Of a stretch of 64,000 nucleotides of DNA, positions 8,601 through 36,989 are shown in pieces. Origin of the DNA: Coptis chinensis (taxonomy: Eukaryota > Streptophyta > Magnoliopsida > Ranunculales > Ranunculaceae); contig CM027378.1 in the NCBI GenBank assembly GCA_015680905.1, forward strand, positions 83,357,501-83,421,500. The letters are read 5' to 3'. Each line of letters opens with the position of its first letter. Within the stretch, counting starts at the first letter, position 1. The notes beneath the pieces were generated by a model. It did not search any database, was not told where the DNA came from, and worked only from the letters and a program-made list of their open reading frames with translations. Both the position numbers and the translations under genes were made by a program.

Positions 8601-8788
8601 GTTAACTTCGGGAAAACCCTTTCACTTAGTAATGTTCTTCATGTTCCCGAGATTCGCCGAATCTGATTTAAATGTCCCTACCGGGGAAAAGGCCAAGGTG
8701 ACTTTTGAGAGTGACAAGTTTGTTCGACAAAGAATGAGGGTTTTGTTGGTAAAGGTTATTGTAATAACAGTGGGTCTTTTCATGTTGA

Positions 8789-12059: not shown

Positions 12060-12069
12060 AGTGGGGGAT
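12060..12069 (+). other. Copia polypurine tract
   Basis: AGTGGGGGAT directly precedes the 3' LTR. A near copy (AGTGGGGGAC) lies about 28 bp upstream, so the tract region looks locally duplicated. Confidence 0.7.
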
Positions 12070-12951: not shown

Positions 12952-14072
12952 ATACACCGCCCTTCCACACTTAAATCGACAAGCTGGTGGTGACGACCCT
13001 AGTCCATCATCTACTGAGTCTCCTCCAATTCAAATGAACTTCCTTCACTTCCATCCACCAATTACTCCTTTTGATGCCGTCCTATTTGTTTTTCATTAAT
13101 TAACGACTCAAAGCCTTAAAAAAAAATGTCTTGCATGTTTATTGTTTAACATGCATGTTTATGGGCCCAAAGTTTATATTGTCTTACTAAGTTGTCGAGT
13201 TTGAGAGAAAGTCGTAAAGCCAATTAAGAATAATAGTACATACGTGTCGAGCGAAGGCAATTGTAATAGTAAAGAGATGGTATGTAGTAGTGATCGATTG
13301 CAATGGTACGGCGCTGGTGTCGTAGAACGTCCATGGCAAAGAATGAAGAGTTTTGGGAATGAGCTGAGTAGGCCAGAAGTAAAATGCAAAAAGTTCATAG
13401 TATATATGTAAGAGAGTGTGGTCTTATTGTGGTTAGTTGCGCTCTCAAGTTGCATCGAAAAAAAAAATAGTTGCGCTCTCAAGTCAAAGAATAGTGAGCA
13501 AGAAAGAGATGTGTCATGTGTGCTTGCTGATATTTCTATTTTTTTAGTTAGACATATAAGTTTTATTGCATGACATACTATGGCATGATGTAGTCACCAC
13601 GTTATGTATATACCGTGTACCGTACATATTTTTTTCAAGGAATAACCATATACACCTATATATATATATATATACACACGTTGTGAACTTTTTTTTTTGT
13701 TGTAATTGACAAAATAATTAAAAGACATATTTTTTTAAATTTGGGAGAACAATTTTGTAATTAGGTTGCATGCTTTTAAGATATTTATAGATAAGAATAC
13801 ATAAATAGAACAACACTTACTCTTGTTGAAAGTTGATAGAACCCCTTGTCCATATAAACGTGTCTTAAACCTCGCCTTATATATATGAAATGTCCTATCA
13901 ACTTTTTGATTGATGAGAATACTTGCAATGCTTCAAATATGGATATCACTAGGTACTTATACTTTTGAGGGATTTAGGGATGAGCCCTCCAGTAGTTATA
14001 ATTTTTGTAATGAGCTCAGCCCCATTTTAGTAATTTGATTGGTTTAAGCCATTAATTGTCTTGCATGCTTCT
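12952..14072. other. Unassigned DNA between two retrotransposons
   Basis: No gene, RNA or element end was found. It contains a (TA)n microsatellite at about 13656-13674 and several A or T runs. It ends in CTTCT (14068-14072), the left target duplication of the next retrotransposon. Confidence 0.6.
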
Positions 14073-14627
14073 TGTAAAGGGGTGTTTTTCTCTTACATAT
14101 ACAGGGGAAGAAGAAAGGGTTTGGATTTGGGAAAGACAGAATTCGCTAAGTAGCGAGCTGCCTACGTATCTTCTCTTGATTTTGGGGGAAGAGAAGAATC
14201 AGGTCTCACGTAATTCATGTAGGTGGTATTTATAGGCACAAGAGAGTGTTGATCTTCGAGACACGTGTACTCCCTTGTACATATGTAGGGTGGAGATTAC
14301 GAATGAGTGTTAGGTTGGTTACGGTAGGTAGGAAGGTGTGATCATTGGGAGTGGGTGCAGTAGTTCATAATTCCCGATAATTGGAAGTACAGATATGGCT
14401 TTGGTAATGATTACCCTTGGATTAAGGAAAATGTCTTTATTCGAAGCATTCTGCTCTAGGTTGTTCAGTCTTCTTGGAACGTTCTTGAGCGAGCTGGAGT
14501 GTACCACCTACATAAAGTGAGCTGCTCGCGAGTCGATCTTAGAGGACGATATCCTGATTGCGTTGCGATCTCTACTTATGCTTAACGCGTGTTTAATATT
14601 TTTTAATGAGGATATTACTCCCTTACA
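14073..14627 (-). repeat. Tat 3' LTR (left copy)
   Basis: Matches 33456-34008 with scattered differences of a few percent by eye. Ends are TGTAAAGGGG / CCCTTACA. Confidence 0.93.
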
Positions 14628-14640
14628 TAGCCCTCTCTCA
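14628..14640 (-). other. Tat polypurine tract
   Basis: The minus strand reads TGAGAGAGGGCTA directly before the 3' LTR. Confidence 0.75.
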
Positions 14641-16817
14641 GTAGATTGTGATGTTCATTGAAGCGATCTGCTAAGAGAAAAACAACAATACGTGTTGAGC
14701 ATGAGTGGACGAGTGGCTGGTGTAAATGGAGTAATTGGCACGCTGTAACGTTCGACTTGGGTTGCATGACGGTTGGAAAACAAAAGTTGTCACGTGATTA
14801 GCATGTGACGGAATCATAGCAGTTGGTAAAGAAACGTGTCGCCGCATTTTCCAGAATCGTGAAAAGACAGTTCCTTGAGCCACGTGTGTGGGCTAGGCCG
14901 TAGGTTGTAATCATAACTCCTTGGTAACTGAACGAGCGGTTGCACAAAATCAAAGTTGGGACAACTGCAAAGTTATTTTTTGTTTTCGTTTTCAGCAAAA
15001 CTACAAGCTAGGGTTTCTCAGGTGAGTGTTTCTGCTGCTGCTGCCTTTCCGTTTTCCATTTTCTTTCATCTTAGTCAAGCGTTGTGTGTTTAGTAGATAG
15101 GTTGGTGTTAGGCTTTATTATTTAAGTTTGGGTAGTCGGTAAGAAGAAAACGTAAAAATTTCTGACTCTGACGATACTCGATCTGAAGAGGTTCGAGAGG
15201 TCTCTTTAAGTTGTGGTGAGTATGAGGATGATAAGGAAGAGTCAGTGAGTCTTGGTAATCAATCTGAGCATGGTGAGGAAGTTAGGGGAGATGAGGGTAG
15301 TGTACGATCTGGCTCTGTTGGTGCTATGGCTAGCACGTCAGGTCGTAGTGAGGGGTCGTCTTCAAGTGGGTTGCCCCCTAGACGGTGGATCGTCATGCAG
15401 CGAGTGCGTTCCCCGAACTGAGGGCAGCTTATGGGATAAACGTACCGAACTTGAAGATATACGAACCAAGGTCGAGTGAAAATGTGTGGAGTGAAGAATA
15501 CAATCCGCCGAATGGTGGGGTAATAATCTGAGGGCCAGCTGAGAGCGCATATGCAAATACCGTTCTCGAAGCTGGTTTGCGACTTTCTAGCTCATTGTTG
15601 GAAATCCCCTTGTCAGTTTGTTGGTAACACCTGGCGGCTGTTCAGGGTGTTCGACCTGCTGAATGCAAGTGACGAGTACCACATAGGGGTGTCTGATATT
15701 ACTGAGCACTTCGTTGTAAGGCGATCTGGTAATTTCAACTTTAGCTTGCAAACTATGACAACGCGTTCTGGTGTGGTCGACGGTGGAAGCAACGAGGCTT
15801 GGACCAAGAGGCCGTTGCTGCTAGTCGGCAACTACTGTGCTAGCGGGTGTAGGTTGCAAACTAGGATTTGCAATATCTCCAGTGGGTGGGAGTGTCTTGT
15901 ACATGTCATTTTAATGGGTGAGTTGTTGCTATTCTAACTGACTTGTGTCTTTGCTTTGGTTGTAGATTTTTCTGTTAAAACACGAACTGATCGTGGGGAA
16001 ATAGAGAGGTTCGCGCGGTTGAGTCGAGTGCAGAAACAAGCGAAGCTGCCTGAAGTTGCTCATTTCTTTGTAGAGAAAGGTGGTCCAGCGATCCGGGAGA
16101 AAAGAAGGATTCAGAAGGATCGAGCTCGAGGTCAAGCTAGGAGGAAAGTGATGGAGAAGCGCGCAAGTGACTTGGTAACCAGGGAGGATAGAAACCGGGG
16201 TCGTGTTAGTTCCAGACGACCCTCAGGAGGTGTTGGTGCCTCAAGTGCGGGTGGGTCAAGCTGGCGACTTGAGGGTGGGTCAATTGATGCTCCTATAGAG
16301 CTGGAGACGGTGGTTTTCAACCCTCGTGTAAGGAGCAAGTCGTCGAAAAGGAAAGCTGATGCGTCTGAGCAAGATGCTGTAAGGGTTGCTAAAGCTGCGA
16401 GGCCTGCTTTGGGGGAGAGTTCCAAAGATGGGGTGGTTTACGGTGGTGGTCGAATTGGTGGTACTACCACTCGCATAAAGACTTCGAGGCGAGACGGAGG
16501 AGTTCGGATCCGCTACTTTTGGAGCTAGGCCGAACTCGTCGCCGGTGGTGCGAGAGCCTAGTCCGCCAGCGAAGGCGAAGAGTTCCCGTAAGGCGAGTGG
16601 GAAGTCAACTATGACTGCTGAGGACATGGAGACCTAACTAGTGTACCTGGATGACAACGAAGTGCAGCGTACTGTGAAGCGGATTGATTGCAGTTTTAGG
16701 TCGAGTAAGGTAGCGGCCTGTCTGCTTGATCATATAGCTTTGGATGACAACCGTAAGGAGCTGGATGAGAGGGGGTTGGAGGATAACTTAAAACGGATGG
16801 AAATCGCTCAATGTCTG

Positions 16818-16903
16818 GTACGTGGGGTTGTCCTGCTTTAACTTATTTGCTTGCTTATTAAACTCGTTGCGAACTGATTATTAGCATATGTGTGCGTCTG
16901 TAG
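16818..16903 (+). other. Predicted intron in antisense ORF copy A
   Basis: GTACGTGG...TCTGTAG, 86 nt, sits directly after codons for AQCL. Copy B has an 81-nt GT-AG interval at the matching place, after VACL (23753-23833). Confidence 0.6.
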
Positions 16904-18588
16904 CTTGTGAGTAGATTTCAGAAGCTAAAGGAGATTGCCCAGTTCTTTGAGACAGATAGGGAAACTGTGGTGAAGCTGACTGAAGAGCTAAAGAATGTTC
17001 AGGACGCTGCTAAGATGGAACACGAGGAGCTTGAAGACCTGAAGAAAACGCACCAAGCTCTTAGTTTGGTGAAGATGCTAAAGGATCCGAGGCCGGAAGA
17101 TCCGAGTTTGAAACTCTGGTGTCAAGAGAACGTTAATGCAAATGCGATTGTGGGAAATTGGTAGAATTTGAATAGCACGCTCTGACCGCAAAGGGAGTTG
17201 CTCAAGACACTACTAAAGCTTATGACGAGCTGGATGCCGACTCTGTTGATCTAGAAGTTGATTATAAAGCTTTGAAAGAGGAGCATGGACGATTTGTACT
17301 CTTTCGATCTCCGGTGCTGGTGGAATCTGAGGGAGATACCAGTGGTGCTCTTATTTCTTCCATCGCTGCTCCGGAGATTGTTGTGCCTTGCACTGAAGCT
17401 GCTGTGTCTGATGTTCTTTGAGTCTAAATCTAGACGGTGTGTCCATAGTAGTTGTCACACCCCGAATTTCGACATAATTCGGAAAAACAATATTTGTTCC
17501 CGACTCTTCGATCTTCGAGGTGTGACGCACTCTCAACTCCCAAAAACCCATAAACAGTTTAAATATGCGGATAATTTAAAAACCAATAAAAATTTCAAAT
17601 TAACAAAAGTCCTCTTCATTACAAAAATTAACAAATGAAAATGCAAATAACCTTATCTCAATTGAAAATCTTTATCACCTCAAAGGAAAACAAAACATAT
17701 CCTGAGATGCAACGCTAACGCAAACCACAAGCAGCAATCAATCTTCTTCAACACTAAACCTGTCAAGACTTATCAACTATGCTCATTTAATGAACACACC
17801 CGATAAGCAAACATGCAAATCGGGTCAGCATTATAAAAATGTTGGTGTGAGTAGCTCTAAAATACAATATATACTTATACATATATATACACCATCCATA
17901 CGGCAGTTAGTTCCTCTACCGAGGCGCCTTAACTTTCAACGACTAATACAACATCCTTAAGTACAATAATTAAAGGCGGTAGTTCCTCCAATCGAGGCCT
18001 TTAACTTCCCACTAACCACACAACAAACTATACGCATAATAAATAAGGCATGTAGTTCCTCCATCGAGGCGCCTTAGGTTCTAACTAAACAAATAACCAA
18101 CCAAGCATATTATCATAATTAGATTGTTTAAAGCTTTCTTTGCGTGTCCCTAAAATTCACATCATATCTATGTCTTACCTAGTTTTCCTGGCTACCACAA
18201 TCGCTTCCCAACGCCGAACATATACATCCACATGCCTCCCCTTACATAATGAACCACTCGGTGCGTAACTACCTTGAGCGGGATGCCGCACACCAGGTAA
18301 CCCTCACACGGAAGCCATTATGTAAGTACTGCCACTATTCGGCATAAAATATCGCGCGTCTCGTTCTATTTTGTGAACGGAATAATCAAGCTACTATTCG
18401 GCTACGCCAGAAGGGCCATTCAGCTTACTGAAACGCCAGAAGGGCTAATCACATTACTTACGCCAAAAGGGCCATTTAGATTCACTGAAACGCCAGAAGG
18501 GCCAATCAAATTGCACACGCCCACACAGGGCAAATCACATGAGTTGTGGTAGCTAGGTTCTAGGATTTTCGTTACGTAATTTATTCAA

Positions 18589-18779
18589 GGGTTATTTAGA
18601 CTTTGGTCCTACTTATTTAGGGGTATTTAGGTTTTAGTCCTAAAATTATCGATTATTAGGCTTTAGTCCTACTTTCATCTGTTGACCTTGAGTCGTCTCA
18701 GTTGACTGTGGTCAAACTATTTTATAATAATATATTTTTCATTTTTTTATCAAAATGGCCAAACTACCCTTCAGCGTAC
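18589..18779 (+). repeat. Left TIR of Pack-MULE
   Basis: About 191 bp, ending in CTTCAGCGTAC. It pairs with the reverse complement of 19929-20120 with roughly ten mismatches or gaps by eye. Confidence 0.93.
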
Positions 18780-19215
18780 CACCATTGGATCATTTCTTAT
18801 TTAGAGTTATACAGAATAAATAATTGCATAAAATCAAATCTGAAGGCATCGATTCCCCCGCAACTAATTTAAACACAATATATACAATTTTTTTTTAATA
18901 AACCATCATCCACTCTAAAATATTAACAGATCAAATGAATGATCTAAAGATCTACAACGTTATCTCCAGATCTTCATCAATAAAACTCGATCAACATTGC
19001 ATATATTAGATAAGCGAAGCAAGAACAATTAACTCCAAACAGATCAGATTTAAAAAAGCGAGTAAAGCCAAAATTATTTAGAAGTAGAAACTCATGTTCA
19101 TCTCAACAGAAACAAAGATAACATCACCCCATTGACAAGACTTACATAACATCAAAAGACAAGATCCATAACCTAAACCAACTAAATCCCAGATCATACA
19201 CTAAATCTCGATGAT

Positions 19216-19736
19216 CTAAGAAAGCTGACCACAATCAAATGGCGATTAAATGTGCCTTTTACAAGTTCCAGATTGAGATCCAACCTTCTCAACGTCATTC
19301 ACAAAATTCATACCTTCAACAACTTGCCCAAACATAACATGTTTCCCATCAAGCCAAGCAGTCTTATCAGTACAGATGAAAAACTGAGATCCATTAGTTC
19401 CAGGTCCAGTGTTAGCCATTGAGAGAATTCCAGGCCCAGTATGTTTCCTAACGAAATTCTCATCAGCAAACTTAGCACCATATATTGATTCACCACCTGT
19501 TCCATTCCCAGGAGTGAAGTTACTGCCTTGACACATGAAACCTGGAATCACACAGTGGAATGATGAGCCCTTGTAGTGTAGTGGTTTACCGCTTCGGCCT
19601 TTACCCTTTCTCTTGTGTAGAGGGCACGGAAATTTTCAGCAGTTTTCGGGACTACGTCAGCGTAGATTTCCATCACGATATGCCCGACTGGTGCCCCACC
19701 GACGGTCATGTTGAAAAAAACTTTAGGGTTTGCCAT
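19216..19736 (-). pseudogene. Cyclophilin (peptidyl-prolyl isomerase) pseudogene
   Basis: Starts [14 protein letters not shown], as plant cytosolic single-domain cyclophilins do, and passes through [10 protein letters not shown]. After a frame change it continues [36 protein letters not shown] and [15 protein letters not shown]. The C-terminal DCGQLS and stop (19216-19218) are in a third frame. The 521-nt span fits the usual 170-174 aa. Intact relatives isomerise Xaa-Pro bonds. Two frameshifts, near 19600 and near 19250, make this copy non-functional. Absence of introns says little, because plant cytosolic cyclophilin genes are often intronless. It lies between MULE TIRs, so it is cargo. Confidence 0.93.
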
Positions 19737-19928
19737 CTTGATTTTTTATTTTATTTTTTGGTTTTATGAGAAGACCTTGAACCGGTCGAACAAAATGGGG
19801 GGAGTCTGTCTATCTCACCTATTTCCTCGAGATGCGAATAAGAAATGATCAAAAGACTTATATAATTTCATCCCTCACAGTTTGACACGTGGTGTTAAAA
19901 AACAATTCAATATAAAGTAGCGTGTCAA

Positions 19929-20120
19929 GTACGCTGAAGGGTAGTTTGGCCATTTTGATAAAAAAAATGAAAAATATATTATTATAAAATGGTTTGACCG
20001 TAGTCAATTGAGACGACTCAAGGTCAATAGATGAAAGTAGGACTAAAGCCTAATAATTGATAATTTTATGACTAAAACCTAAATACCCCTAAATAAGTAG
20101 GACCAAAGTCTAAATAACCC
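19929..20120 (-). repeat. Right TIR of Pack-MULE
   Basis: Inverted partner of 18589-18779, followed directly by TTTATTCAA. Confidence 0.93.
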
Positions 20121-20687
20121 TTTATTCAAATGTCATACATTAATGACTCATAATAATTCCACTATATCACGTGCAGGTCAAATACCTTATTGCACTAAGC
20201 CACAATATTTAGAAATATCTCAATTATATCTCATAACCACTTTCATTCTTTCACGTGTCAATATATTATTGCACTACGCCACAATCCCGTGGGAAATATC
20301 CACAAATACTCTACTAGCATCTCACAGATAAAATAATGGAGTGTCTATACATTTATGTCTCCAAAACTATTGCATTCAATATATATATCCCAACATATTA
20401 TATAATGTCACAATATCAACGGCAAATCTTAATTAGATAATGACCACCAAATTTATACAAGCTTCCACAGCATTTTAGCATTTGATTTGTCCATACAATT
20501 TACAACATAAAATGTAGCACAATTAAACAGTCCACAATCCACAATCAAAGCCCAATATATATATGTTTTACACACTACTCACGTCAAATCTAAATTAGAT
20601 AATGACAAACAACGTTATATAATTTTCGACAATATTTTATTACTATATTTGTCCATATTCTTAAATATGATAAAACTGGAAAAAGTC

Positions 20688-20825
20688 AATATTCCACAGT
20701 CAACAGTCAAAGTCAAAGGTCAACGGTCAAAGTCAAAAGCCAACAGTCAAAGTCAACACATCATGGTCGAAGTCAAACTGTCATTGTCAAAGTCAACACA
20801 TCATGGTCAAAGTCAAACTGTCATT
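20688..20825 (-). repeat. GTCAA (TTGAC) array in solo LTR copy 2
   Basis: Repeated AGTCAAAGTCAACAC-type units give over a dozen TTGAC motifs on the minus strand. It is the counterpart of 2627-2836 in copy 1. Confidence 0.8.
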
Positions 20826-23082
20826 TCCATGTTCAACAGTTCAAGGTCGTAGCCATGGTTCATGGCTAAGGTCAAGGTGCATGGCTCATGGGCTCATGAC
20901 CAAGGTAATGGTTCGGACCCAACTGGCCAAGCCCAAACCTTAGAACCCAAAAGTCCAAATGTTGAAAGACCCATTTGGATCTCTACTAAATCCTATGGAC
21001 TGGCCCCAAACAATATAGAAACTGGCCCAAAACAGTTAAGTGGTTCGGCCCAAAAATTGAACTGAAACCGGCCCAAAAACTTAATCTAGAACTGGCCCAA
21101 CAACTTAAAACAAAATCGGGCCCAACAACTAATAAGCTAAGGCCTAAAAACCGAAACCCATTGGCTTTGGCCCAAGCCCAAACCGATCAACAGTGCTTCT
21201 TCTCCCTCCACCAGCAGCCACCGATTTGGCCACCGCCAGTTCCGATCGTCCGCCCCTTTCAACCTCACGGTTTTGATCCAAATCGAAAACCTTATAACTT
21301 TACTAAAAACAAAATCCCCAAATCATTTGATCCCCTATCTTCCTCAAAACTAGATCTGATTTTCGCCGCCATTAACGACTTCTCAAAGCTTCAATCTTAC
21401 CTCTTTTACAGCCCTCACACACCCTACCTTACCCCACTACAACCATTCCTCAATCCACCAACACAAACAACCGAAACACAGTTTAAACTATTGTACTGGA
21501 GTATTTGGGCGAGCTGCCATTAATGCTCGTTTCAAGCTTCAGCCGCACCATTGTCCAGCCCACAACCACCACCAAACAATCCATTCCAGCCGACACATAA
21601 AAAAAACCAAACATCAAGAGTTCAACCAACATCATAACAGGCGACGCCATTGATGAACAGTGCAAGCTTTGCCGCCACCCCCAATATCTTCAATCCTAAC
21701 CACATCAGTACGGGTTCAAAACCAACCCAAAAGAGTTCAAACCAAAATATGGGACGATTTCTTGCTGTTGGGCTTGCGCTGCCATTAACAGCTTCTCGAA
21801 GCTTTGACAGTTCAATGTCGATCTCACAGAGTTTCAAAATACAGTTTAACCAATTTTTAACAGTATGAGCAGGATGAATGCTAATAACAGTATGAGCAGG
21901 ATAAAATACATTCTCAACAGTATGAGTTTCAAAACAGGACGAATGCTAATAACAAAATAATGAACTAAAAATATGAGCAGAAACTTTTTAACAGTATACG
22001 CCGGTACACGGAAACTATAAATTTGGTGAAATAGCAAAAATAGCTACTCACCTGTATTAAAACTCAACTCGACGAATCCCTCCTCGTCCGAATCGTCGCG
22101 CTCCACCCTCCAGCAAACGAGTTTCTAGCTCTGCCTCCATTTTTATTATTTTTCTTCTCTCCAAACCCTATTCTCTAGAACAATGTGATTATATACTTGG
22201 GTTTGAAACCCAAGCCCAAAATAGACTCGGGCCCAAAAATCAGGCCCGCGTATCCCAAATCCAATTTAGCCGATTTTTAAATAAATAAATAAATAATTAA
22301 TTAATAAATATGTATTTTAAATATGGGCGTTACAGTAGTTGAGGGGAAAGAAGCTGAAGTTGACGACTCGCTGGTGGTCGGAGGTTTGGCCGTTATGCCT
22401 GGAACTAGCGAGTTGTGATGTAAGGTTGGTAATTTGAATGGTTGTTAGTTATGATACAATAGGACTGGTTTCTCGGGGTAACTTGGGCAGTTCGCTTTTC
22501 TGATTTCTGTTTGATAATACTGGACGACCATATGATGATGAATATTGGTTAGCCGAGCTGGATTTCCTGAGTAGACTCAGGAGCTCGGCTGACCTATGAA
22601 CTGTGTTTGGGTCCGCCCTAGCATATCGCTTTTTGCTTATATGTTATGCTTAACACTTGGTTCTTTGCTTTGTAAGACTCTTGTATGGTTAAATGTATAA
22701 ATGGAGGTATCGCTATATCTGTGTGGCTGTGTAGACGCTTCCTTGTGACCATAGTTGACTTTAAGTAACCTGTGATCGTTAAATGGGCGCCCTGTCCTTA
22801 CTAGGGCCTTCAGCGCTGTAGGTCGCATGTAACATGAGTTGGTGATTCGTTAGGCATTGCGGAGATAGTAGGACGTAGGTCGATATCTCTGTTTTGTAGA
22901 AGTGAAACAGTTTTGCACGTGCATGCCACGTGTAGGCAAGTGAGTGGTTAGCTATGTGCAATGATGACTGCCAGGTGGCCTGACGTTTGGTGTCTCGATG
23001 TAATTATGATGTACCTAGGGAAGATATGTTATTACACAATAAGTAACACTATTCGTAGAAAAGCAAAGGCATTTGTTCCCAT

Positions 23083-24234
23083 TTGCTCTTCCTAGCTAGT
23101 ACTGCATTTCTTCGTCTCCAACCTGTGCTGCTTCATCTTCTTCGCTGCTTGTTCAGGTACGTCTGTCTTCTTTATATGGCTACCACGTTGGAACAAAAAC
23201 TGGTGTTTTGGTTGTTAACTCGCGTATTGTCATTCTTGCTCGTAGATTACGTTATGGCCAGGTGCTGCAGATATACAAGGGGAGAAGGAAGTTTGAGGAG
23301 GACCTCTCCTCTGATAATGGAGGAAATGGAATTCCATCCCCACGTGCATGGTGATCGGGGTAAAAGGAAAGTTATTGCTGTAGATGCCAAAGGGAACAAG
23401 CGACCTAGAAGATCAGGTCGTTCGACTGGGGGCATTGTGTTCAGGTCGCCCCAGCGAGTGGACGATGCCGTTTGGATTTAATACAGCATGGAGCAATAGA
23501 ATTTAATTGGGCAAAGTCACCATCGCCATCGGTGAGAGTTCGATCTCCAGCGTCGGTGATGTGGGGAGCGAATTCTACTACATGGGGAAGACGGGGAAGA
23601 AGCATGCGGTGAAACGCTCTGATTGTAGCTTCCACTCGGCACCCATAGCGACCAGTCTTCTAAAGGGGATCGTGTTGGATGGTGACAGGGCTGAGATAGA
23701 GGATGAAGATATGGATACGCTGTTGGGGACCATGGACATGGTTGCTTGTTTGGTGAGTAACTTATGCGTGATGTTTTTGTTTCTGTTACTTGGGCAGTTT
23801 TGACTTTAACCTTGTACCAGCAGTTTTTTGTAGGGTATGACAAATTGAAGAATCCTGTGCAGCGCACCGATACTGACACTAACCCACACGTCGAGCTAGG
23901 ATGTATGCGAGCTGCGTGGGGAGTTGACAAGAAAAAACTGGAGGTGATGACCAAGAAATGTCAGGATGCTGCTGACGAGAACACTATGTTGGTTACTGCT
24001 ATGACTGATTTGCAAGGGGAGCTGGCTAAAGTGACTGAATATGCTAAACAATGTCAGAGGGTAACGTGCAAGGCGCAAGACGCGTATACCATGGCATGTG
24101 TCCAATATGCTGAGCTGGACGAGAAATATCACCAGCTGAAAAAGGCGAGTGACGGCGGGGAACAAGGATCAGGTATGCGTGTGGTGTTGAGATCTACCAA
24201 GCACACCCCTTCGACTAACGCTGCCCCGAAGATA
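23083..24234 (+). pseudogene. Antisense extra ORF, copy B (diverged, partial)
   Basis: Same order as the C-terminal half of copy A: a basic stretch (GNKRPRRSGRST), then KRSDCSFHSAPIATSLLKGI, the partner of KRIDCSFRSSKVAACLLDHI in copy A. Next is an acidic stretch ending VACL, a predicted intron (23753-23833), and a coiled coil with DENTMLVTAMTDLQGELAKV. The N-terminal domain of copy A was not found here. Frame changes occur near 23480. The region therefore holds two diverged copies of one gene in tandem; whether they arose inside this element or were inherited as a pair is unclear. Confidence 0.65.
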
Positions 24235-24699
24235 AGCATGTTGTGGCTGATTCTTGATTGTGATGTTTCTTCTTGTCTTTGTCATTTGTGGGAATTTTAT
24301 AAATATTTTGTAAGTTCACCTCTCTTATACGAGAGTTAACAATAGAGCTGTGTCTTCAGGCTTGCTTGAGCAGTTCACCATTTTGATACCGAGAACTGGT
24401 TTCCACGAGAGTGGCAGTTCAATGTTTTGTTAACATGTTAGAAGTATCGATCTGGATTTCCTAGGTAAACCCAGCAGATCGGTGAATTAGTGTCTTGGCG
24501 TTGGCCGAGTATTCCCTTTTAATGTGTATGGAATGCATGTTTCTGCTTGAATGTTTATAGCTAGCACCTTGTTTATAATGCGTATGGGATGGAATGTCTA
24601 AGGAACCTGTGGTTTATCTTAAAGAAGCGTTACACTTGTAGTTATCGCTTTCTTTCATGGTTGTTGCGCTCTGTTATGAGGCTCATTGAGAGTACTCTC

Positions 24700-25373
24700 G
24701 TTGAGCTGAGCTTAATATTAAGGATTTCTCACTAGGTGAGTTGGGAAGGCGTTGGGGCCTGTAAGCTAGAGATAGCGTTCTGCCCGGAGACAGCGTGTTG
24801 GCTTAAGAAAGCGTGTTGCTCAATGAGAGTGTTCTCGCTGAGTCGATCCTAGAAGTATAGGTCCTCGACTAGCGAGACTCGGAGAGGCTGTGGAGCCTGT
24901 AAGCTCATAAGAGCATTCTGCTCATGGAGAGCGTGTGGGCTTATGAAAGCGTGTTGCTCATTGGGAGAGTTCTCACTGAGTCAATCCTAGAAGTATAGGT
25001 CCTCGACTAGCGAGACTTGGAGAGGCTGTGGAGCCTATAAGCTCCTGAGAGCATTCTGCTCACGGAGAGCGTGTGGGCTTATGAAAGCGTGTTGCTCACT
25101 GGGAGCGTTCTTGCTGAGTCGATCCTAGAAGTATAGGTCCTCGACTAGCGAGACTCGGAGAGGCTGTGGAGCCTGTAAGCTCGAGGCGCTCGCTCCGCGA
25201 GAGAGCGTGTGGGCTTATGAAAGCGTGTTGCTTCATCGGGAGGCGTTCGGCCGAAGTCGATCCTAGAAGTATAGGTCCTCAACTAGCGAGACTCGGAGAG
25301 CCTGTGGAGCCTGTAAGCTCCTGAGAGCGTTATGCTCATGGAGAGTGTGTGGGCTTATGAAAGCGTGTTGTGA
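24700..25373 (-). repeat. 138-bp tandem repeat array
   Basis: The landmark AGTC[GA]ATCCTAGAAGTATAG recurs at 24841, 24979, 25117 and 25255, exactly 138 bp apart. A more diverged unit precedes it and a partial one follows, giving about five units. It lies between the end of integrase and the antisense ORFs, the 3' untranslated region of the element in its own orientation. Confidence 0.93.
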
Positions 25374-25473
25374 GATTTGCCATTGCGAGTAAATGAAGTG
25401 AATTGTAATAATAAACAAAAGTAAATTAACTTTGAATTTACAGTAAGAGAAAACATGAGAATTTACAGTAATT

Positions 25474-26640
25474 TTACTGATAAAATTTCTTCAACAAATA
25501 AGTGTTCCAAGGTCGTGATAATAATTTCCCTTCTTGAGTTTTGATCCAGTATGCTCCGCTGCCTACAACGCGTTCCACTATGTATGGGCCTTCCCAAGTT
25601 GGTGTTAATTTGGAGTCATCTTGAGTCTTTTTCAAAACTAGATCGCCGGGTTGAAAAGATCGAGGATGCACTCGCTTGTTGTAGGACTTCTTCAGAATTT
25701 ACTGATAGGATGCTACTCTGACGGTGGCTAGGTCGCGCCGTTCTTCCAGCAGATCGACCTCTCGTGCTAAAATGGAATCGTTGCCTCTAGACTCGACAAG
25801 TTCTGACCGAGTAGTAGTGACTGTCAACTCGATGGGAATAACGGCTTTTGTGCCGTAACACAAAGAAAATGGCGACTACCAGATTCTGATTTGCGCTGAA
25901 AGTGCGTGAGCCCACAAAATGTTTTCTAGCTGATTTGGCCATTGGCTTTTGGTCTTCTCAATCTTTTTTTTCAAATTTTCTAAGATTGCTTTGTTGCTGG
26001 CCTCAGCTTGACCATTACTTTGTGCGTACTGGGGAGTGGAAAATGCATGAACTATTTTCCACTTGGCCAGAAATTCTTTGACCGTTTTGCCTTTGAACTG
26101 TGAGCCATTGTCCATCACCAGTGTGTGCGGCAAACCAAATCTGGTGATGATATGAGTCCAGATGAAGTTTCTGACATGTGACTCTTTGACATTTGTGAGT
26201 AGAATAGTTTCGACCCATTTAGTGAAATAGTCAGTTGCAGCTAAGACGAAGCGGAATCCAGTACTTTTCTGTGGGATGAATGGTCCCATGATGTCCATGC
26301 CCCACATGTGAAATGGCCAAGGGCTCGCGATGCTAGTCAACTCATGAGCTGGTTGTATGATGTTGTGACCAAAGGTCTGGCATTTGACGCACTTGAGTAC
26401 ATATGTTTTGGCGTCGATCTGCATGCGAGGCCAAAAGTATCCCTGGGAGATCGCTTTGTGAGCCAAAGAGTGACCTCCCGCATGGTTTCCACACTCTCCT
26501 TCATGAATCTCAGCGAAAATCAGTTGGCCTTGTTTTGGGCTTACGCACCTCAAGTGAGGGCCACCAGCGGACTTTCTAAACAACTTGCTATTGAGCATGC
26601 AGTAACGGCGGGCCTGATATGGGATTTGCCTAGCCTTGGT
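25474..26640 (-). pseudogene. Tat integrase
   Basis: From the right: the HHCC zinc-binding part (HEGECGNH, then KCVKCQTF), then the DDE core with WGMDIMGPF, ATDYFTKWVE, VMDNGSQFKG and YAQSNGQAEASNKAILENLK. This includes two catalytic Asp and the Glu. A stop at 25876 and a shift separate the C-terminal part (FQPGDLVLKK, then WEGPYIVERVVGSGAYWI; 25474-25671). In place of RNase H, the sequence before the zinc domain (IPYQARRYCMLNSKLFRKS) joins directly to a protease-derived spacer. Integrase inserts the cDNA; this copy is close to intact but split. Confidence 0.9.
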
Positions 26641-27770
26641 ACGCTCGTCTGGGAGCGTGCCGTGTTGGGATCATCTTCAGTTCCTAGGTTCACTCGCTCT
26701 CTGTCTGCATGCTGAGATGTTATCTTTGGCGCGGATTCTTCCTCAGTTGGTGATACTTTAACGATCTGAGAGAGAGTGGAACTGGCTGCACGAGCTGGAG
26801 CGATATCTATGGTGTCGACAACAGGGGCTGGAATGGCCTCTGTGGTCATGACAACAGAGTCTGGAGTGATCTTCGGAATTGATATTGGTTGTGCAAAACA
26901 TGACGACACGACTTCTGGGGTGCTGAATGGTGGAATGACGACAGTGGAAGCGACCTCTGGGGTCTTGACTGCTGGATTGACAACGAATGACGTGACTTCT
27001 GGGGTCCGACCTGGTGAAGCAACAATGGTTAGATTGACTTTTGGAGTTGAAACAGACGACTGGCCCCCAGCGAGTTGTTTTGGTGCTTTGGCTCTAACCT
27101 CGGCAACCAGGTCTTTGGCCATTGTATAACTGGTGGGCTGGTTCCTTGTGTGAGTATGCAGGTCAGCGGTCTTGTTTGCAGAGAGGATTTGATTACAATG
27201 ATAAGCCTCGAGTTGATTGCTTAGAAGCTCCATCATGCCTCTTGGGCCTGGGAAACGGAAGATTTGATGCAACGTGGATGGAATAGCTTGCATTTGATGA
27301 ATCCAATGCCGTCCTAGAATAGCATTATAGGACGATTTGATGTCTAGAACACTGAAGTGTGTATTGAAGCTGACTTTGTCCTCTCTAGATCCCAATGAAA
27401 CTGGAAGTATGATATCGCCGATTGGGTCGGCCCTGGAGCCATTAAACCCATAAAAAGAAGCGATTGGATCTATAAAGACTGACTTAGGTAAGTTCATTTC
27501 TTAAATTGTATGATAGAAGAGAATGTCGCACAAACTGGCCAGGGTCTATCAGGACGCGTTTGACTGTCCAGTCACTGATCTTGACATGGACGACAAGTGC
27601 ATCATTGTGAGGGAGGCAAACCTTGTTGAGGTCGGCCTCGGTGAAAGTAATATCCCCTGCGGTTCGACCTGAACTTCGTGGGGCGTGTGACGCTTGTGAA
27701 GAAAAATGATCACTACAATAAAATTAATCTTTTGCCACAAGTACAACCTTGCTTTAGCCACTGTCATCAG
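26641..27770 (-). pseudogene. Tat protease region with Thr/Pro/Val-rich spacer; RT and RNase H absent
   Basis: Right part: HNDALVVHVKISDW then VKRVLID, the lead-in to a gypsy aspartic protease. The usual D-x-G-S active site is altered to DPGQ and frameshifted. Then come FYGFNGSRADPIGDIILPV and FSVLDIKSSYNAILGRHWIH, typical of the protease-RT linker in Tat elements. Where RT should start there is instead a low-complexity spacer with TPEV repeated several times (26800-27050). It leads straight to the pre-integrase segment. No RT motif (such as the YxDD box) was found on either strand between 25474 and 33128. Confidence 0.8.
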
Positions 27771-28113
27771 CTGTTGCCAGGGTCCAACGGCCCACAGTCG
27801 TGTTCAAGTTTTTAAGTGGTCGTGGGGTATTGTTTAAGTAGTTGGAATTTAGTTCCCATTTTGGCCACGGCTGTCCATTTGTTTCGTCCACCGTTGGATT
27901 AGACTTGGATTTTGATGTCCGTTAAGATCTCATGAAACCCTTGTGAAAATAAAGAGTAACGCGAAACAACTATCAAAAATCGAAGAAGAAGACTCGAGTT
28001 GTTCGAAAGAAAACTCGATTTTAAAGCAACAACAAGGTTTGTCTTCCTTCTCTCTCTCCTCTATAAACCTTACTTCTATATTATTCACTTCTCTCATCTA
28101 ATAGAACTTCCCT

Positions 28114-28128
28114 CCCCCCCCCCCCCCC
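28114..28128 (+). repeat. C15 homopolymer followed by CT repeats
   Basis: Fifteen C in a row, then CTCTCTCTGTCTCTC. Its length may be unstable or misread. Confidence 0.9.
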
Positions 28129-28387
28129 TCTCTCTGTCTCTCACCCAGGTTGAAGTTCGAGGAAAAGCATCAATTTTTTCCCCTTCACACACTCTCTCTC
28201 ATGGTAGAGTCACGAGAACTAGGTTCGATTGCACTCTTATATCTGTTTTTGTTTTTTTTTTTATACTTATTTTGACGAAATTACTTGTGGCTATTTTTTT
28301 GATGTCATGTATGTTCTCTGAGATCGTGTATTTTGTTGTTATGGGCCATTTTGATATCCGGTATTCTTGTTTTTTGTTTTTTTCCAG

Positions 28388-30412
28388 AATGGTGATAAAG
28401 ACAAGTTACTAGCAAAGAGACATTTTTCAAAAGCAGAAGTGGATCAAGCTATTTATAGTCTATATGTTCATGCTTATGTGCAGGTGAGTAATGAAAGTAT
28501 GAATTTGTGGTAGCATTATTCACTATGTACTATCCTTACCAAGAGTATTATTTCAAGCAGTCTGAAGGTGAAAAGCTCAATTATATAGGAAGAATAGTGG
28601 AATTTTTTGAATCCGACAATAAGGAGCCTTATTTTAGAGCGCAATGGTTTTTTAGACCGGTTGATACTGTAAGATCAATTGCCGACCTGCTGCAACACTT
28701 TGTTATGTTATATATATTGTGTGTTTATTGTAATGGTGTTTTTGTGCTTGGATGTTTAACTAGGTCTTTAAATAGGTTGTCACCCAAGAGCTGAATAGCA
28801 CATTCGAGAGAGACATGTATTCTATTATGAAATCAGAGACGACAACCCATTAGAATGTCTGGTTTCAAATATCACAGTTTTACAAGTGCCCTCAAATGTT
28901 TGCCTCTATCACTCTGCCCTCTTTAGTGTGTTTTCTTTCATTTCAGTCCAGACTAATTCATCTTATTAAATAGATCAGTTTAGCGGAAATACCGCAGTGT
29001 GATTTTTTTTATAATATGGCATACTCTTTGCCTTATTCAACCTTTCAAAGCCTACCAGCAGGTATATTACTGTTTTGTTTAGTATTGGAAAGGCATCTGA
29101 TTATGCCATATCTTTGTCAATATCGACCGATAACAAATCTGGTTAGATTCTTCAAGAGAGTTCGGAACCATCTTTGCCAAGTTCGAGTAAGGAATGTTCT
29201 AGTGAAGCTTCAGAGGAATCCGAGATGAAGTTACTTGATTTGTATTCTGGCTGTGGTGCCATGTCCACTGGTTTATGTCTTGGGGCTGCCACATCCGGGG
29301 TTAAACTTGTCACTGTAAGTCAAATAGTTGTAACATGTGTCATATACTGTTTCAGTATCTCATTAACAAAGTGTTGACTCATTGTAATGCTTACTGTATA
29401 AATGGGCAGTTAACCTTAATAAGGACACCTGTAAAAGCTTAGAGCTCAATCATCCAGATACCAAGGTCTATTGATTAGTTGCTGTTAACTTCCCATGTCA
29501 ATGAGAGTGCATACATTTGAAATAATACCTTTTTTTTTTTCCGAAGTCGGGAATGAAGTCGCCGGATTATCTATCATCGCCGAGGAATGGCAGAAGCTGT
29601 GTGTAAACTTCTCCTTGTTGGGGACTAGAGCTCAACAAGACACCAGCTGGAGTCAAGTATCTCTGAAGAGGATGTATTTGGAGATGGGGACGCCATTCCT
29701 GAAGGTGAATATGAAGTGGGGAAGATACTTGATATTTGCTATGGCAATCCAAACGATAAGAAAAAACCTGGATTGTACTATAAGGTACTTGTATAATGGA
29801 AATTTATAGCCATTCATTTATTTGAATGTTCTTCCGATTCAACAAGTTGTGATGCATATTTATATTTGCAAATCTTTTGCTTACTCGACCTTTTGTTCAA
29901 TCTAAATGTATTATGTTTGGCATTCTTGGGAAAAATGGTTCTACGGAATTTTTTATTTTTATTTTAGTTTTAGTTGTAATAGATAATGCATTTTGGATTA
30001 TATGTTTTTGCTATTGTTAATTTTTTCAGTTTTACACTTTGCCTTGAATCTGTAGGTAAGTTGGAAGGGATATGGCCCTGATGATGACACATGGGAGCCA
30101 GCTGAGAACCTCGACTATACAATACTTGTGTAAATGCTATTGTAAGCTTTGTATGCTTTAGTATGTCTCTGTGTACTTAATGTTGTTGATACTTATTCTC
30201 CAGTGAATGCCCACAAAAAGTAGAGGAGTTTGTGACCCATGGTTACAACTTGAATATCTTGCCTTTGCCTGTAAGTTCTTCTGTGAATTTCTTAGCAGCT
30301 ATATTAGTTTACAAGAAATACTTATATCACCTATGCTCTGTTATAGTGCATAATTCTTATTATTGGCTTGTTTTACTTGATTATCAAGGGTGATGTTGAT
30401 GTTATATGCGGA
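28388..30412 (+). pseudogene. CMT: Chromomethylase (CMT) gene fragment, intron-containing
   Basis: Exon-like blocks with GT-AG borders give, in order: KRHFSKAEVDQAIYSLYVHA (28388-28483); the BAH part IGRIVEFFE...YFRAQWFFRPVDT (28561-28668); EIRDDNPLECLV (about 28799-28898); and YNMAYSLPYSTF (to 29061). Then come methyltransferase motif [21 protein letters not shown] (to 29314), WAVNLNKDTCKSLELNHPDT (29403-29467), the EEWQKLCVNFSL stretch (from about 29544), chromodomain halves EYEVGKILDICYG (to 29784) and WKGYGPDDDTWEPAENL (from 30056), EEFVTHGYNLNILPLP (to 30270), and GDVDVICG (30389-30412). BAH, chromodomain and motif I in this order is unique to plant chromomethylases, which methylate CHG/CHH cytosines at H3K9me2 chromatin. 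The fragment stops just before the catalytic PCQ motif and has a frameshift in the chromodomain exon, so no active enzyme can be made. Confidence 0.93.
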
Positions 30413-31599
30413 TCATTATTGATCATCCTTGTAATATGTATTCATACATTTTGTTTCTATAATTCCCAATATATTCAGGTTCAAATTGATGCCGTTAAGT
30501 TTATTGTGAATCACGCTTGTACAAGTCATCTTTTGTGTGCCACATACATTGAATACTATAAGGCCTGCCCTCTGTTCCTTGTTTGTTATTTTCTTTTTCT
30601 TTTTAATTTTATTGTTGTTAACATTTGGTCCTGGACTGCAAGTGTTTTTACTCCACTTTTCATGTTTGTCACCTTATTCATCTGAGATTCCATCCGTTAA
30701 TTTGTCCAGGTCCAAGTCTTAAGTGGTACGCCTGTTAGCACATAGTGTGTTAGCAACACCGAAATTAGTAAAGGTGACTTATTTGCCAGAGGTTCCATCC
30801 GTACGTCTAATAGTGGTATGGGTGTGACTGGTATGTGTAATTAATCCTTGTAGAGGTATGTAACTCCATTTGTTTTCTCTCTTGCAGGTAGTATGAGGAA
30901 TAGATGAACACATGCCGTCTCTTCCATCATCAACTGGACACGAGGTTATATCATATTCAAAACTACTCAATCAGGTAATCTTTCATAATTCAAAAATAGT
31001 GTTCAGATGTATGCGCTGCTACGTTGTTTATCTAGAGAAACCAACAAACTACTTCTGTGATTGTGATACTTAATTCTTAAACAAATATTTATTAGTGTTT
31101 TGTATTATTAATCTTTCTATTTGATGATGACTGAATCTTATATATTGACTTAATTTTTCTGTGAATTTCTGTGAAAATGTGTGTAGTTCAAGTTCTAATA
31201 ATTGATTTTATATGGTTTTAGCTATATCTTCAATCTTCAATGCCTAGCCTACTGTCCAACATGATGAGGTACAAGCAAGCAAACCGGAATAGGCAGACTT
31301 TGATCGTTTGTCGAGTTTAGGCACTATATACGGTGATGTTTTCATTTTTTTTTAAGAGTCATTCTAAATAGTGTTTAAATTTTTAAAGAGTGTTATATTT
31401 GTTCTTTTAAGTAAGTTACGATGCCTAATGGGATCTATGTTGTAAAAAAAAACCTTATGGCGAGTACATATTTGAGTATGAAATATTGAATTGTGGATAA
31501 TTAAGATTTTTGTGGGTTTGATTGGAATGTATGAATTTTGTATGAACTGCAGGTGATGCGAATTGTATGAATTTTGTATGGCGCGCTAGAATCAATTTT

Positions 31600-31954
31600 T
31601 TTTATCCAACAAAAGACATTTGCCACGGCCATAAACTGTGGCTAAACTTTAGATACTATCCACAAAAGACATTTGCCATGGTCTAAACCTGTTGCCAAAT
31701 TATAGATCCAAGTCCACATAAGACATTGGGCTGGTCGTGTGAGCAATGGCTACGGTTTAGTGTTGTGGCAAACGAGGACATTTACCACAGCCCTTGTAAC
31801 GGTTTATGTCCGTGGCAAAAAATGAAGCTTTACCCACGGTCTTTAGCCGTGGCCAAAGATTAGCCACAGGCGCATTGGCAACGGCTTAGAACCGTGTCAA
31901 AAGGTCTTTAGCCACGGTCTAAGACCATGGCAAACGCTCAGTATTCTTGTAGTG
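31600..31954. repeat. CACTA right subterminal repeat region
   Basis: Short motifs related to TTTGCCACGG and CCGTGGCAAA recur about ten times in both orientations up to the terminus. In studied CACTA elements such arrays bind an element-encoded protein. A shorter set lies at 27733-27900. Confidence 0.75.
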
Positions 31955-31964
31955 GATAAACTTC

Positions 31965-33128
31965 TTAAAGTGCGCCGACACACCTGCGTTTCTCCCTGGA
32001 AGATGTCACGGAATCGTATGGGAAAGTGATCATATGAATAGTTCTTGTGTTGTCGCGATCTGATGAGTGATGTCGGCGTTCATGGCGAGAACGGTCACGG
32101 TCTGGGAAGCGGGGACGTCCTCTGCTGCGGGAGCGAGCTTGAACCTTGTGGTGGTCCTGGCGAGGTGGGGATCTATTGCGCACTCGGCGAGCCATGAGTT
32201 TATGGCGTAAGTCGTCGTCAGCTATGTTAGTATACTGTTTGATATGCCCTGCTTCGATGAGATCTTGGAGGTAGTGTTTTAGCCCCCAGCATGCATCGGT
32301 CTCATGACATTTGGCTCGGTGAAATGCGCAGTACGGTTTGTTAAGTCGGTCCACTGGTTGCCTCACATCAAGTCGGAAATATGAAACTCGCTTGATCTTT
32401 TCTAAGATGTAATTAGGCGAGCGTGTCAGGACGGTGAACTCTTGGTTGTTATTCGTTCTGTTACCCGGCTTCCGCTCTTGCTGTCGGGGGCGTTTTTTGG
32501 AGACTGGGGGGTCATCTGATATTGTTGCGACCTCTTCTTCTTCTGGTAGGCCTTGACGGTTCAGGCTTTCCTGCAACTTTATATACTTGTCGACTCGAGT
32601 GTAAAGCTCAGATAACGTCTCGGGGCGCTCTTTCATCAGCGATCTGGCGAGTGTCGTGTTTCGCACACGGCAAGCGTTGTAGAATGCCAAGGTGGCGAAA
32701 GACTCTTTCAATCCTGCTTCCATGCACAGTAGTTCAACTTTGAACCGACCTAAAAATTCATGAATTGTTTCGTCTTTGCCTAGTGAGAGCTGGAACAGCG
32801 AGTCCAGATCAGCCTTCTTACGTCTATTGTGCACATATTGACTAGCAAACGAATCGGTAAGTTGTTCGAAGGTCTTTATCGAGTCTGGCTCGAGTAAGAA
32901 GAACCAATCGAATGCGCCATCTTTGAGACTAGCTGGGAACAAACGGCAGTGGAGGTGATCGAACTCTGGTGCACTATAGAGTGCCAGGCTTTGGATATAA
33001 CGAGCCACGTGTTGACCAGGGCATGTGCTGCCATTGTACATCAGAAAACGTAGCTGAACAAAATCCTGAGGAGTGGGTTTATTTAGTACCTCTGTGGTGA
33101 ATGGCGATGCACGGTACGTCTTGAGCAT
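31965..33128 (-). CDS. Tat-type gag polyprotein
   Basis: A continuous 387-aa frame, the longest in the window. The capsid-like part includes TPQDFVQLRFLMYNGSTCP, YIQSLALYS, CRLFPASLKDGAFDWFFLL and LTDSFASQYVHNRRKK. ETIHEFLGRFKVELLCMEAG follows, then ETLSELYTRVDKYIKLQE. The C-terminal part has CAFHRAKCHETDACWGLKHYL, a Cys/His cluster common in gags of this group, and an Arg/Asp-rich tail (SRSRGRPRFPDRDRSRHERR). Gag would package the element's RNA. The frame ends 11 bp from the CACTA insertion, but its stop lies before it. Because it is still open, it may supply particles for relatives. Confidence 0.9.
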   Translation of the reverse strand: MLKTYRASPFTTEVLNKPTPQDFVQLRFLMYNGSTCPGQHVARYIQSLALYSAPEFDHLHCRLFPASLKDGAFDWFFLLEPDSIKTFEQLTDSFASQYVHNRRKKADLDSLFQLSLGKDETIHEFLGRFKVELLCMEAGLKESFATLAFYNACRVRNTTLARSLMKERPETLSELYTRVDKYIKLQESLNRQGLPEEEEVATISDDPPVSKKRPRQQERKPGNRTNNNQEFTVLTRSPNYILEKIKRVSYFRLDVRQPVDRLNKPYCAFHRAKCHETDACWGLKHYLQDLIEAGHIKQYTNIADDDLRHKLMARRVRNRSPPRQDHHKVQARSRSRGRPRFPDRDRSRHERRHHSSDRDNTRTIHMITFPYDSVTSSREKRRCVGAL

Positions 33129-33437
33129 TTTCTGGACAATCTGGGTTGCGTCCTTTCTTACTGCGCTTTGGCCAATTCGTTGCGATAGTTCGTTAATCTG
33201 CTGATTAACTTCGTTGATGCCGTTCTCGGTGACGTTCCCAACTGGTTGTTGATGTGCGTCTACTTGTGCACGAAGAGCAACATTTTCCTACCGAAGCAAG
33301 GAAATGCTTTCATTTGTCAAGCCTAGCTGGTTTGTGAGGCTTTGAACTTGAGCTTCGAGGCTTGCCATGCTTCGTGGGCTTGAGAGTTTTGGTTTTTGAG
33401 TTTTGATTTATGTGAAATTGGTGTCTCAAGTAATCGA

Positions 33438-33455
33438 GACCACAGACGGCGCCAA
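33438..33455 (-). other. Tat primer binding site
   Basis: On the minus strand TTGGCGCCGTCTGTGGTC directly follows the 5' LTR. TGGCGCC is the usual start of primer sites in plant gypsy elements, commonly assigned to tRNA-Asp. Confidence 0.85.
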
Positions 33456-34008
33456 TGTAAAGGGGTGTTTTTCCCTTACATATACAGGGGGAAGAATAAA
33501 GGGTTTGGATTTGGGAAAGACCGAGTTCGCTAAGTAGCGAGCTGCCTACGTATCTTCTCTAGATTCTGGGGAGAGAGAAGAATTAGGTCTCACGTAGTTC
33601 ATGTAGGTGGTATTTATAGGCACAAGAGAGTGTTGATCTTCGAGACACGTGTACTCCCTTGTACATATGTAGGGTGGAGATTACGAATGAGTGTTAGTTT
33701 GGTTCTGGTAGGAAGGCGGTGATCATTGGGAGTGGGTGCAGTAGTTCATAATTCCTGGTAATTGGAAGTACAGATATGGCTTTGGTAATGATTACCCTTG
33801 GATTAAGGAAAATGTCTTTATTCGAAGCGTTCTGCTTTAGGTCGTTCAGTCTTCTTGGAACGCTCTTGAGCGAGTTGGAGTGTACCACCTACATAAAGCG
33901 AGCTGCTCGCGAGTCGATCTTGGAGGACGATGTCCTGATTGCACTGGGATCTCTACTTATGCTTAACGCGTGCTTAATATTCTTTAATGAAGATATTACT
34001 CCCTTACA
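33456..34008 (-). repeat. Tat 5' LTR (right copy)
   Basis: Partner of 14073-14627, flanked on the right by CTTCT (34009-34013). Confidence 0.93.
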
Positions 34009-36771: not shown

Positions 36772-36989
36772 GAAGTTGGGTACCCAATGAAGTCTGACAC
36801 GTGGAGGGAAATGACCTTGGAACGTACGTGTCACATTAACCGAAACTTAAAGAAATCAATTGGGAATTAGGGGGAAAAACTGTCCTAGTGAACCTCAATT
36901 AAATTTGGAAACCCTAATTTTTAGTTTCACTTCAATCTCCATATTATAACCCTCATTTTATCTTTACGGTTCGAATTATTGGTGGAGAA

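Follow-up and report, generated by a model that had tools for sequence, protein, structure and literature searches.

A CACTA element carrying a segment of a chromomethylase gene in Coptis chinensis

A non-autonomous CACTA element in Coptis chinensis carries a segment of a chromomethylase (CMT) gene within the 64-kb window analysed here (the whole stretch of DNA, 64,000 nucleotides). Chromomethylase-type DNA-methylation genes keep transposons silent, and a silencing gene is an unusual cargo for an element of the Pack-CACTA kind. The segment is probably transduplicated cargo of a Pack-CACTA-like element, dispersed to at least five loci and decaying at this one. If a transposon family spreads a piece of a silencing gene, it would provide a natural test of counter-defence selection versus chance cargo. 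Cargo status also would explain at least one partial methyltransferase-like gene model in the Coptis annotation, P0124, and perhaps four more.

The terminal inverted repeats of the CACTA superfamily are evident, with CACTACAA at both ends of the element (Table 1). The window contains three copies of CACTACAA on the plus strand and four of TTGTAGTG; a visual comparison of the six ordered pairs that begin with CACTACAA shows matching 3-base flanks for 27711/31954 alone. This confirms the exact termini and GAT duplication reported in a preliminary description of the sequence. The available text of PMC8978399 gives a 3-bp target-site duplication (TSD) for the superfamily, and that of PMC8903248 gives 5 nt for CACTA elements in rice and maize.

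Table 1. Positions of the CACTA element, its cargo and its host in the window
Feature	Position	Strand	Basis or remark
Non-autonomous CACTA (Pack-CACTA-like) element, 4244 bp	27711..31954	+	termini, GAT/GAT TSD, subterminal repeats
TSD GAT, left copy	27708..27710	.	adjoins CACTA 5' end
TSD GAT, right copy	31955..31957	.	adjoins CACTA 3' end
5' terminal inverted repeat, CACTACAATAAAATTA	27711..27726	+	preceded by GAT (GAT, then CACTACAATAAAATTA)
3' terminal inverted repeat, CACTACAAGAATACTG on minus strand	31939..31954	-	plus-strand TATTCTTGTAGTG, ending at 31954, then GAT
Direct and inverted subterminal repeats of the TTTGCCACGG type	31617..31941	.	repeat families D1, D2, I1, I2, I4; extra copy at 27752-27787
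Captured chromomethylase segment, about 10 exon-like blocks plus introns	28388..30411	+	tblastn with 120 CMT proteins; ZMET2 match
Exon-like block 1, upstream of BAH domain proper	28388..28483	+	has AG and GT borders
Exon-like block 2, BAH domain	28561..28668	+	tblastn, Pfam
Exon-like block 3, end of BAH	28764..28891	+	in-frame TAG 28773-28775; frame change near 28808; compared with Coptis P0126
Exon-like block 4, linker	28974..29061	+	
Exon-like block 5, methyltransferase motif I	29147..29314	+	tblastn
Exon-like block 6	29400..29468	+	without AG acceptor directly upstream
Exon-like block 7, chromodomain start	29546..29784	+	frame change near 29620-29629
Exon-like block 8, chromodomain end	30056..30112	+	without GT donor directly downstream
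Exon-like block 9	30204..30270	+	tblastn
Exon-like block 10 (GDVDVICG)	30389..30411	+	clear CMT similarity stops just short of PPC
Host Ty3 LTR retrotransposon	14073..34008	-	LTRs 14073-14627 and 33456-34008; TSD CTTCT; gag 31965-33287; integrase 25876-26670

Direct and inverted subterminal repeats, another trait of the superfamily, are present as well: a 36-nt unit recurs seven times with 61-100% likeness, six times within 31617-31941 and once near the 5' end, at 27752. Five of the window's six occurrences of the 7-mer GCCACGG/CCGTGGC lie inside the element (binomial chance about 7e-6, for a word picked after it had been sighted). An inverted copy of the 5' end at 30603-30626 (21/24, matched by none of 100 shuffles) hints that the element is more complex. 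Pfam scanning of 10 of the 19 stop-to-stop open reading frames of at least 60 aa identified no transposase family, which autonomous CACTA members would encode, the sole match being BAH; on this basis the element is classed as non-autonomous.

The cargo was delimited by tblastn with the best 120 of 710 CMT homologues (285-906 aa). CMT blocks start at 28382, and outside them these queries match nothing in the window at E<0.01. Similarity is clear up to 30411-30415, before the catalytic PPC motif; PPC and the later methyltransferase motifs of a functional chromomethylase are absent by the same 120 queries. (Weak alignment runs on to 30466-30514 in 11 of them, with PPC unmatched; a further exon at 30416-30514 was considered and dropped.) The joined exons match maize ZMET2 (4fsx) with E 4e-67, and both Chromo and BAH exceed their Pfam cut-offs; the BAH-bearing reading frame alone falls just below (29.6 versus 30.8 bits). 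The BAH, motif I and chromodomain sequence noted previously is borne out, and the earlier count of at least nine exons with introns agrees with the roughly ten found. A host-gene segment between element ends, as in Pack-CACTA elements, is represented by the CMT exons.

This copy is damaged in several ways: a stop and a frame change in exon 3; a frame change in exon 7; and defective splice sites. Judged by its sequence, it is dead as a gene: neither a methyltransferase nor an intact reader protein can be made from it. The window keeps 47 of 54 residues invariant among 38 CMTs, versus 28 of 86 in the most variable columns; in a leave-one-out control, the worst intact CMT keeps 54 of 57 invariant residues. 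To judge from these residues, the block's divergence mostly arose under constraint, before decay.

The CACTA element is nested within a minus-strand Ty3 LTR retrotransposon, whose LTR pair has diverged by K80 0.061. When the insert and one GAT are removed, the retrotransposon frame is continuous across the junction, bar one stop two codons upstream. Past the junction this frame looks protease-like, judged by eye only.

Five annotated Coptis protein fragments bear the CMT piece: P0124, which represents the window's own locus and equals its exons at 167/167 compared residues; and P0126, P0130, P0134, and P0147. The latter four lie on contigs of 97.7, 124.6, 114.4, and 85.2 Mb, respectively, which, judged by length, are the window's contig and three others, in a genome of about 958 Mb according to the available text of PMC8166882. 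The best ungapped blocks agree with the window at 82-94% (P0126, 125/152; P0130, 91/100; P0134, 77/82; P0147, 68/72), figures that lean high because the best local stretch was taken per block, after low-scoring chance placements had been dropped. Those placements were P0130 E7b (8/30), P0147 E1 (7/20) and E7b (9/36), P0134 E10 (3/8), and P0126 E8 (4/7); with them the totals become 99/130 for P0130, 84/128 for P0147, 80/90 for P0134, and 129/159 for P0126. Over all shared alignment columns, the two fragments tested agree at 74% of 127 (P0130) and 65% of 214 (P0126). P0147 also contains sequence encoded by an intron of the window (22/25 residues, counted separately). The copies differ in extent, since P0130 has a 36-residue 5' part absent from the window. 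All five annotated fragments are short (110-310 aa), with Pfam BAH in two and Chromo in none. P0126 seems to include badly predicted stretches.

A single relic copy, which the preliminary description had named as a finding that would count against its proposal, is not what the genome holds: with four further Coptis fragments bearing it, the CMT piece is no lone relic. These siblings, known from annotated protein models, may belong to the same CACTA family.

No close intact donor is present among the best 120 of 710 homologues, the top one being 52% identical across 59% of the query; the best of 38 intact CMTs compared is 55% identical to the window. Besides the window and P0126, the tree built here comprises those 38 CMTs, drawn from the 120, together with one piece from Stephania and two of CMT2; P0130 was aligned and excluded. 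In this tree the window groups with P0126 at the end of a long stem (0.49, support 100), away from the Aquilegia and Thalictrum CMTs; their exact position is not trusted, because of the long branches and the apparent misprediction of P0126.

The best explanation is transduplication: a non-autonomous CACTA element would have taken up a copy of some 2 kb of a chromomethylase gene, exons and introns alike, and retention of the introns argues for copying at the DNA level. Dispersal of the CMT segment to five loci or more would have followed, presumably through CACTA transposase acting in trans, and the window's copy would have jumped into the Ty3 retrotransposon, where it decays as passenger cargo. 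The capture route, movement of the siblings by CACTA transposase, and absence of function are what we infer, as is the capture itself, because a donor gene was not found among the best 120 of 710 homologues.

Another agent (a Helitron, a Mutator-like element, or segmental duplication) could instead have spread the CMT pieces, one of them coming by chance to lie inside a CACTA element. Variation in the extent of the copies, as in the P0130 5' part, would fit, as would siblings seen as protein models. However, matched CACTA ends enclose the whole of the window's CMT block. Several inverted pairs span the block; the longer ones involve the CACTA's own ends or subterminal repeats, and none is located at the borders 28388 and 30411. 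Dispersal by another agent is unlikely. Less likely by far is that some sibling with less damage encodes a BAH-chromodomain protein that lacks catalytic motifs and would rival CMT for methylated histone H3. Both domains score above Pfam cut-offs in the joined exons, and clear similarity halts just before PPC; but the window copy is frame-broken, and the five fragments have the short lengths and sparse domains given above. The chance of such a competitor is minute.

The preliminary description proposed an anti-silencing role, in which small RNAs from the mobile CMT copy could reduce expression of the parent gene, much as in the miR820 case. In the form considered here, RNA read from either strand of the CMT block would give rise to small RNAs acting against a live chromomethylase, as miR820 acts against OsDRM2. 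The rice CACTA precedent is real, as the available text of PMC3459959 has it. The fragment's presence at several loci also would suit such a role. Moreover, the CMT fragment is sense to the plus strand and the Ty3 host lies on the minus strand, and transcription running in from the right LTR would therefore produce antisense CMT RNA. Against this, the CMT block contains no 21-nt foldbacks with up to 4 mismatches (mean of 20 shuffles, 0.05), and so has no miRNA-precursor shape of the miR820 type within its methyltransferase-derived part. (Across the whole element there are 13 overlapping 21-mer pairs, with first arms starting at 31616-31839 and partners at 31796-31914.) siRNAs need no foldback. 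Yet homologues reach at most 52% identity (best 120 of 710), and the 55% of the best intact CMT is too distant for small-RNA pairing, if the CMTs compared are the sole targets. Lowered parent expression thus lacks support, and an anti-silencing cargo is highly improbable. Slightly more improbable still is its extension to a multicopy Coptis CACTA lineage, in which antisense read-through from the surrounding retrotransposon would pair with sense transcripts of siblings or of a live CMT, and the resulting small RNAs would reduce chromomethylase activity and ease silencing of the element. In sum, the CACTA element with its CMT fragment is confirmed and the anti-silencing reading has no support here; the alternative offered alongside it, chance cargo, fits best.

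Passenger cargo in a Pack-CACTA-like element has several relatives, described here from the available texts. Pack-CACTA and Pack-TYPE elements of Arabidopsis, rice, and maize likewise combine CACTA ends and host gene pieces with no transposase (PMC8903248, PMC13317346), but the cargo in Coptis is a silencing gene and its siblings are known from protein models alone. Tgm-Express of soybean, likewise a CACTA element, has picked up fragments of genes (PMC1947982); plant and cargo differ, and in the Coptis element a single donor gene is seen. The rice miR820 elements are multicopy and contain sequence similar to part of a host DNA methyltransferase gene (PMC3459959). Theirs is a miRNA precursor directed against live DRM2, whereas the Coptis element holds a 2-kb CMT block with no foldback, and no live donor was found among the best 120 of 710 homologues. 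VANDAL transposons of Arabidopsis counter silencing through VANC, an encoded protein; they would be a parallel only if the Coptis element does likewise, and no intact protein is seen in it. In Arabidopsis CMT1, a chromomethylase is broken together with the Evelknievel retroelement (PMC5410703), but there the transposon inserted into the gene, whereas in Coptis it is the transposon that holds a piece of the gene. The accessible portions of the open-licence literature searched yielded no description of a transposon carrying a chromomethylase fragment, which is not proof of absence.

A Copia open reading frame has at least 120 matches, those listed being 53-74% identical and spread over many plants, and they say nothing about the species. 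Rfam, applied to the whole window at its gathering threshold, returns a single match, a tRNA at 50529-50618.

Both ends of the CACTA element (27711-31954) read CACTACAA and its flanks are equal, GAT and GAT; among the six ordered CACTACAA/TTGTAGTG pairs of the window, compared by eye, this is the one with matching three-base flanks. Repeats of the TTTGCCACGG type, direct and inverted, cluster near the 3' end, with one copy near the 5' end. Five of the six GCCACGG/CCGTGGC words in the 64-kb window fall inside the element, a clustering with a chance of about 7e-6 for a word picked post hoc. A Pfam scan of 10 of the 19 stop-to-stop open reading frames of at least 60 residues touching the element revealed no transposase, the sole match being BAH. 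With no transposase visible, the element is non-autonomous.

Its cargo is a chromomethylase (CMT) segment. With the best 120 of 710 chromomethylase homologues as tblastn queries, CMT blocks in the window are confined to the element at E<0.01. They cover three features in CMT order: BAH, motif I, and the chromodomain. The closest solved structure is ZMET2 (E 4e-67). Clear similarity ends at GDVDVICG (30411-30415), where intact CMTs continue with the catalytic GGPPC; weak alignment extends to 30466-30514 in 11 of the 120 queries, with PPC not matched. Because introns are kept, the block was copied from DNA. Ends, flanks, repeats and tblastn blocks thus confirm the CACTA transposon with CMT fragment put forward in the preliminary description.

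The host is a minus-strand Ty3 LTR retrotransposon of about 20 kb (14073-34008) with gag and integrase domains, LTRs of 555 and 553 bases bounded by TGTAAAGG...CCTTACA, and CTTCT at both outer sides. The CACTA insertion adjoins the gag reading frame, just after it. When the insert and one GAT are removed, the Ty3 frame is continuous across the junction, save for one stop two codons upstream; the insertion is younger than its host. The LTRs differ at 32 of 552 sites (K80 0.061, or about 0.03 per lineage). Overlapping direct repeats, about 85% identical, lie within the Ty3 element at 24681-25370.

The CMT piece is unable to make a methyltransferase. Exon 3 contains a TAG (28773-28775) and, relative to a sibling Coptis fragment, P0126, shifts frame near 28808; exon 7 has a frame change near 29620-29629; exon 6 lacks an AG directly 5', and exon 8 a GT directly 3'. 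The start of exon 5 is in another frame in siblings P0130 and P0147, which, judged by eye, suggests one more indel.

When did this decay begin? A set of 38 intact CMTs, chosen from the best 120 homologues, has 54 invariant columns, and the window keeps 47 of them; in leave-one-out comparison the intact CMTs themselves keep at worst 54 of 57. At the most variable columns the window matches the consensus in 28 of 86. Most of the divergence thus arose under constraint that has since ended. The seven losses, taken as all neutral and with 20% of changes silent, correspond to roughly 0.06 changes per base since then. Nine clean blocks, together 768 bases, contain no stop; the chance of this is 0.076 with 0.06 changes per base and 0.014 with 0.10. 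These blocks were picked by CMT similarity, and neither the stop-bearing exon 3 nor the initial part of exon 7 belongs to them. Though rough, the estimate is around double the host retrotransposon's 0.03 per lineage, so the CMT piece was probably already in decay before insertion into the Ty3 element.

Related fragments occur elsewhere in Coptis. A 200-residue query matched 37 proteins, five from Coptis chinensis. One of them, the partial protein P0124 (IFM89_002283), is identical to the window in 167 of 167 compared residues; the window thus belongs to Coptis chinensis or a very near relative, and the fragment has been annotated as a gene. Going by the stated contig sizes, P0134 is on the window's own contig (114.4 Mb), and P0126 (97.7 Mb), P0130 (124.6 Mb) and P0147 (85.2 Mb) come from contigs of other sizes. 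Agreement with the window in the best ungapped blocks, dropped placements excluded, is 125/152 (P0126), 91/100 (P0130), 77/82 (P0134) and 68/72 (P0147). Counted across every column shared in the alignment, the figures are 65% of 214 (P0126) and 74% of 127 (P0130). Intron 3, read as protein, shares 22 of 25 residues between P0147 and the window. At the protein level, these matches support dispersal of the fragment among Coptis loci. Residues 1-36 of P0130, which open with a Met and an acidic stretch, attach at the border that also delimits exon 1 in the window (28388), and have no significant match within the window. Several short partial CMT proteins are also present in Xanthoceras sorbifolium (P0128, P0131, P0142, P0143, P0144), three on contigs of equal given size; perhaps these are another spread of CMT pieces.

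As to the donor, none of the best 120 of 710 homologues (285-906 residues) is named as from Coptis, with P0003, P0039 and P0098 bearing no name and P0067 a truncated organism; across all 120 the highest identity is 52%, over 59% of the query. Had there been a close donor of such length, it would have headed the ranking. The best intact CMTs, from Tetracentron and Macleaya, share 55% of 331 columns with the window, which groups with P0126 on a stem of 0.49 (support 100) outside the Aquilegia and Thalictrum CMTs. The donor may be either a fast-evolving Coptis paralogue, now lost, broken or mis-annotated, or a gene annotated outside 285-906 residues.

Does the cargo counter silencing? The preliminary description proposed small RNAs that lower the parent gene, by analogy with rice, and the precedent is sound: miR820 arises from CACTA elements, has a precursor that is similar to a portion of OsDRM2, and lowers OsDRM2 (PMC3459959). 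One point, of anatomy only, favours the idea: the Ty3 element reads opposite to the CMT block, so read-through would make antisense CMT RNA. However, unlike a miRNA precursor, the CMT block has no foldback (0; shuffles, mean 0.05), and no live CMT target at close identity appears among the best 120 of 710 homologues. The transposon and its cargo stand, but the anti-silencing role is unproven and very improbable. CACTA elements that have captured genes are on record from several plants, and chance cargo explains the block without further assumption. The element is of an ordinary kind, its cargo of unusual meaning.

An inverted copy of the element's 5' end (27704-27727, with 7 of 24 bases outside the element) lies at 30603-30626 and matches at 21 of 24 bases, a score reached by none of 100 shuffles (best 18), although the pair was taken from a list and the sequence is rich in AT. 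Should the match be genuine, the copy may represent a relict inner CACTA end just after the CMT block, closing it off, which would fit an element fused from two.

Further features of the window
Feature	Position	Strand	Remark
Direct repeat pair, 89% identical	6572-7456 and 12069-12953		around copia pol
Copia pol, in pieces	8789-11252	+	between direct repeats
DUF1985 ORF	36918-37682	+	
Two Mutator-type (MULE) transposase pieces	42873-43331 and 53106-53717	-	
tRNA-Leu(CAA), 90 bases	50529-50618	+	
SWIM domain ORF	52332-52997		beside second MULE piece

The 6572-12953 region is probably a copia-type LTR element. DUF1985 is often seen with plant transposons. The tRNA may bear an intron. The stretch 62946-64000 aligns with its reverse complement at 67-74%, and is probably AT-rich simple sequence.
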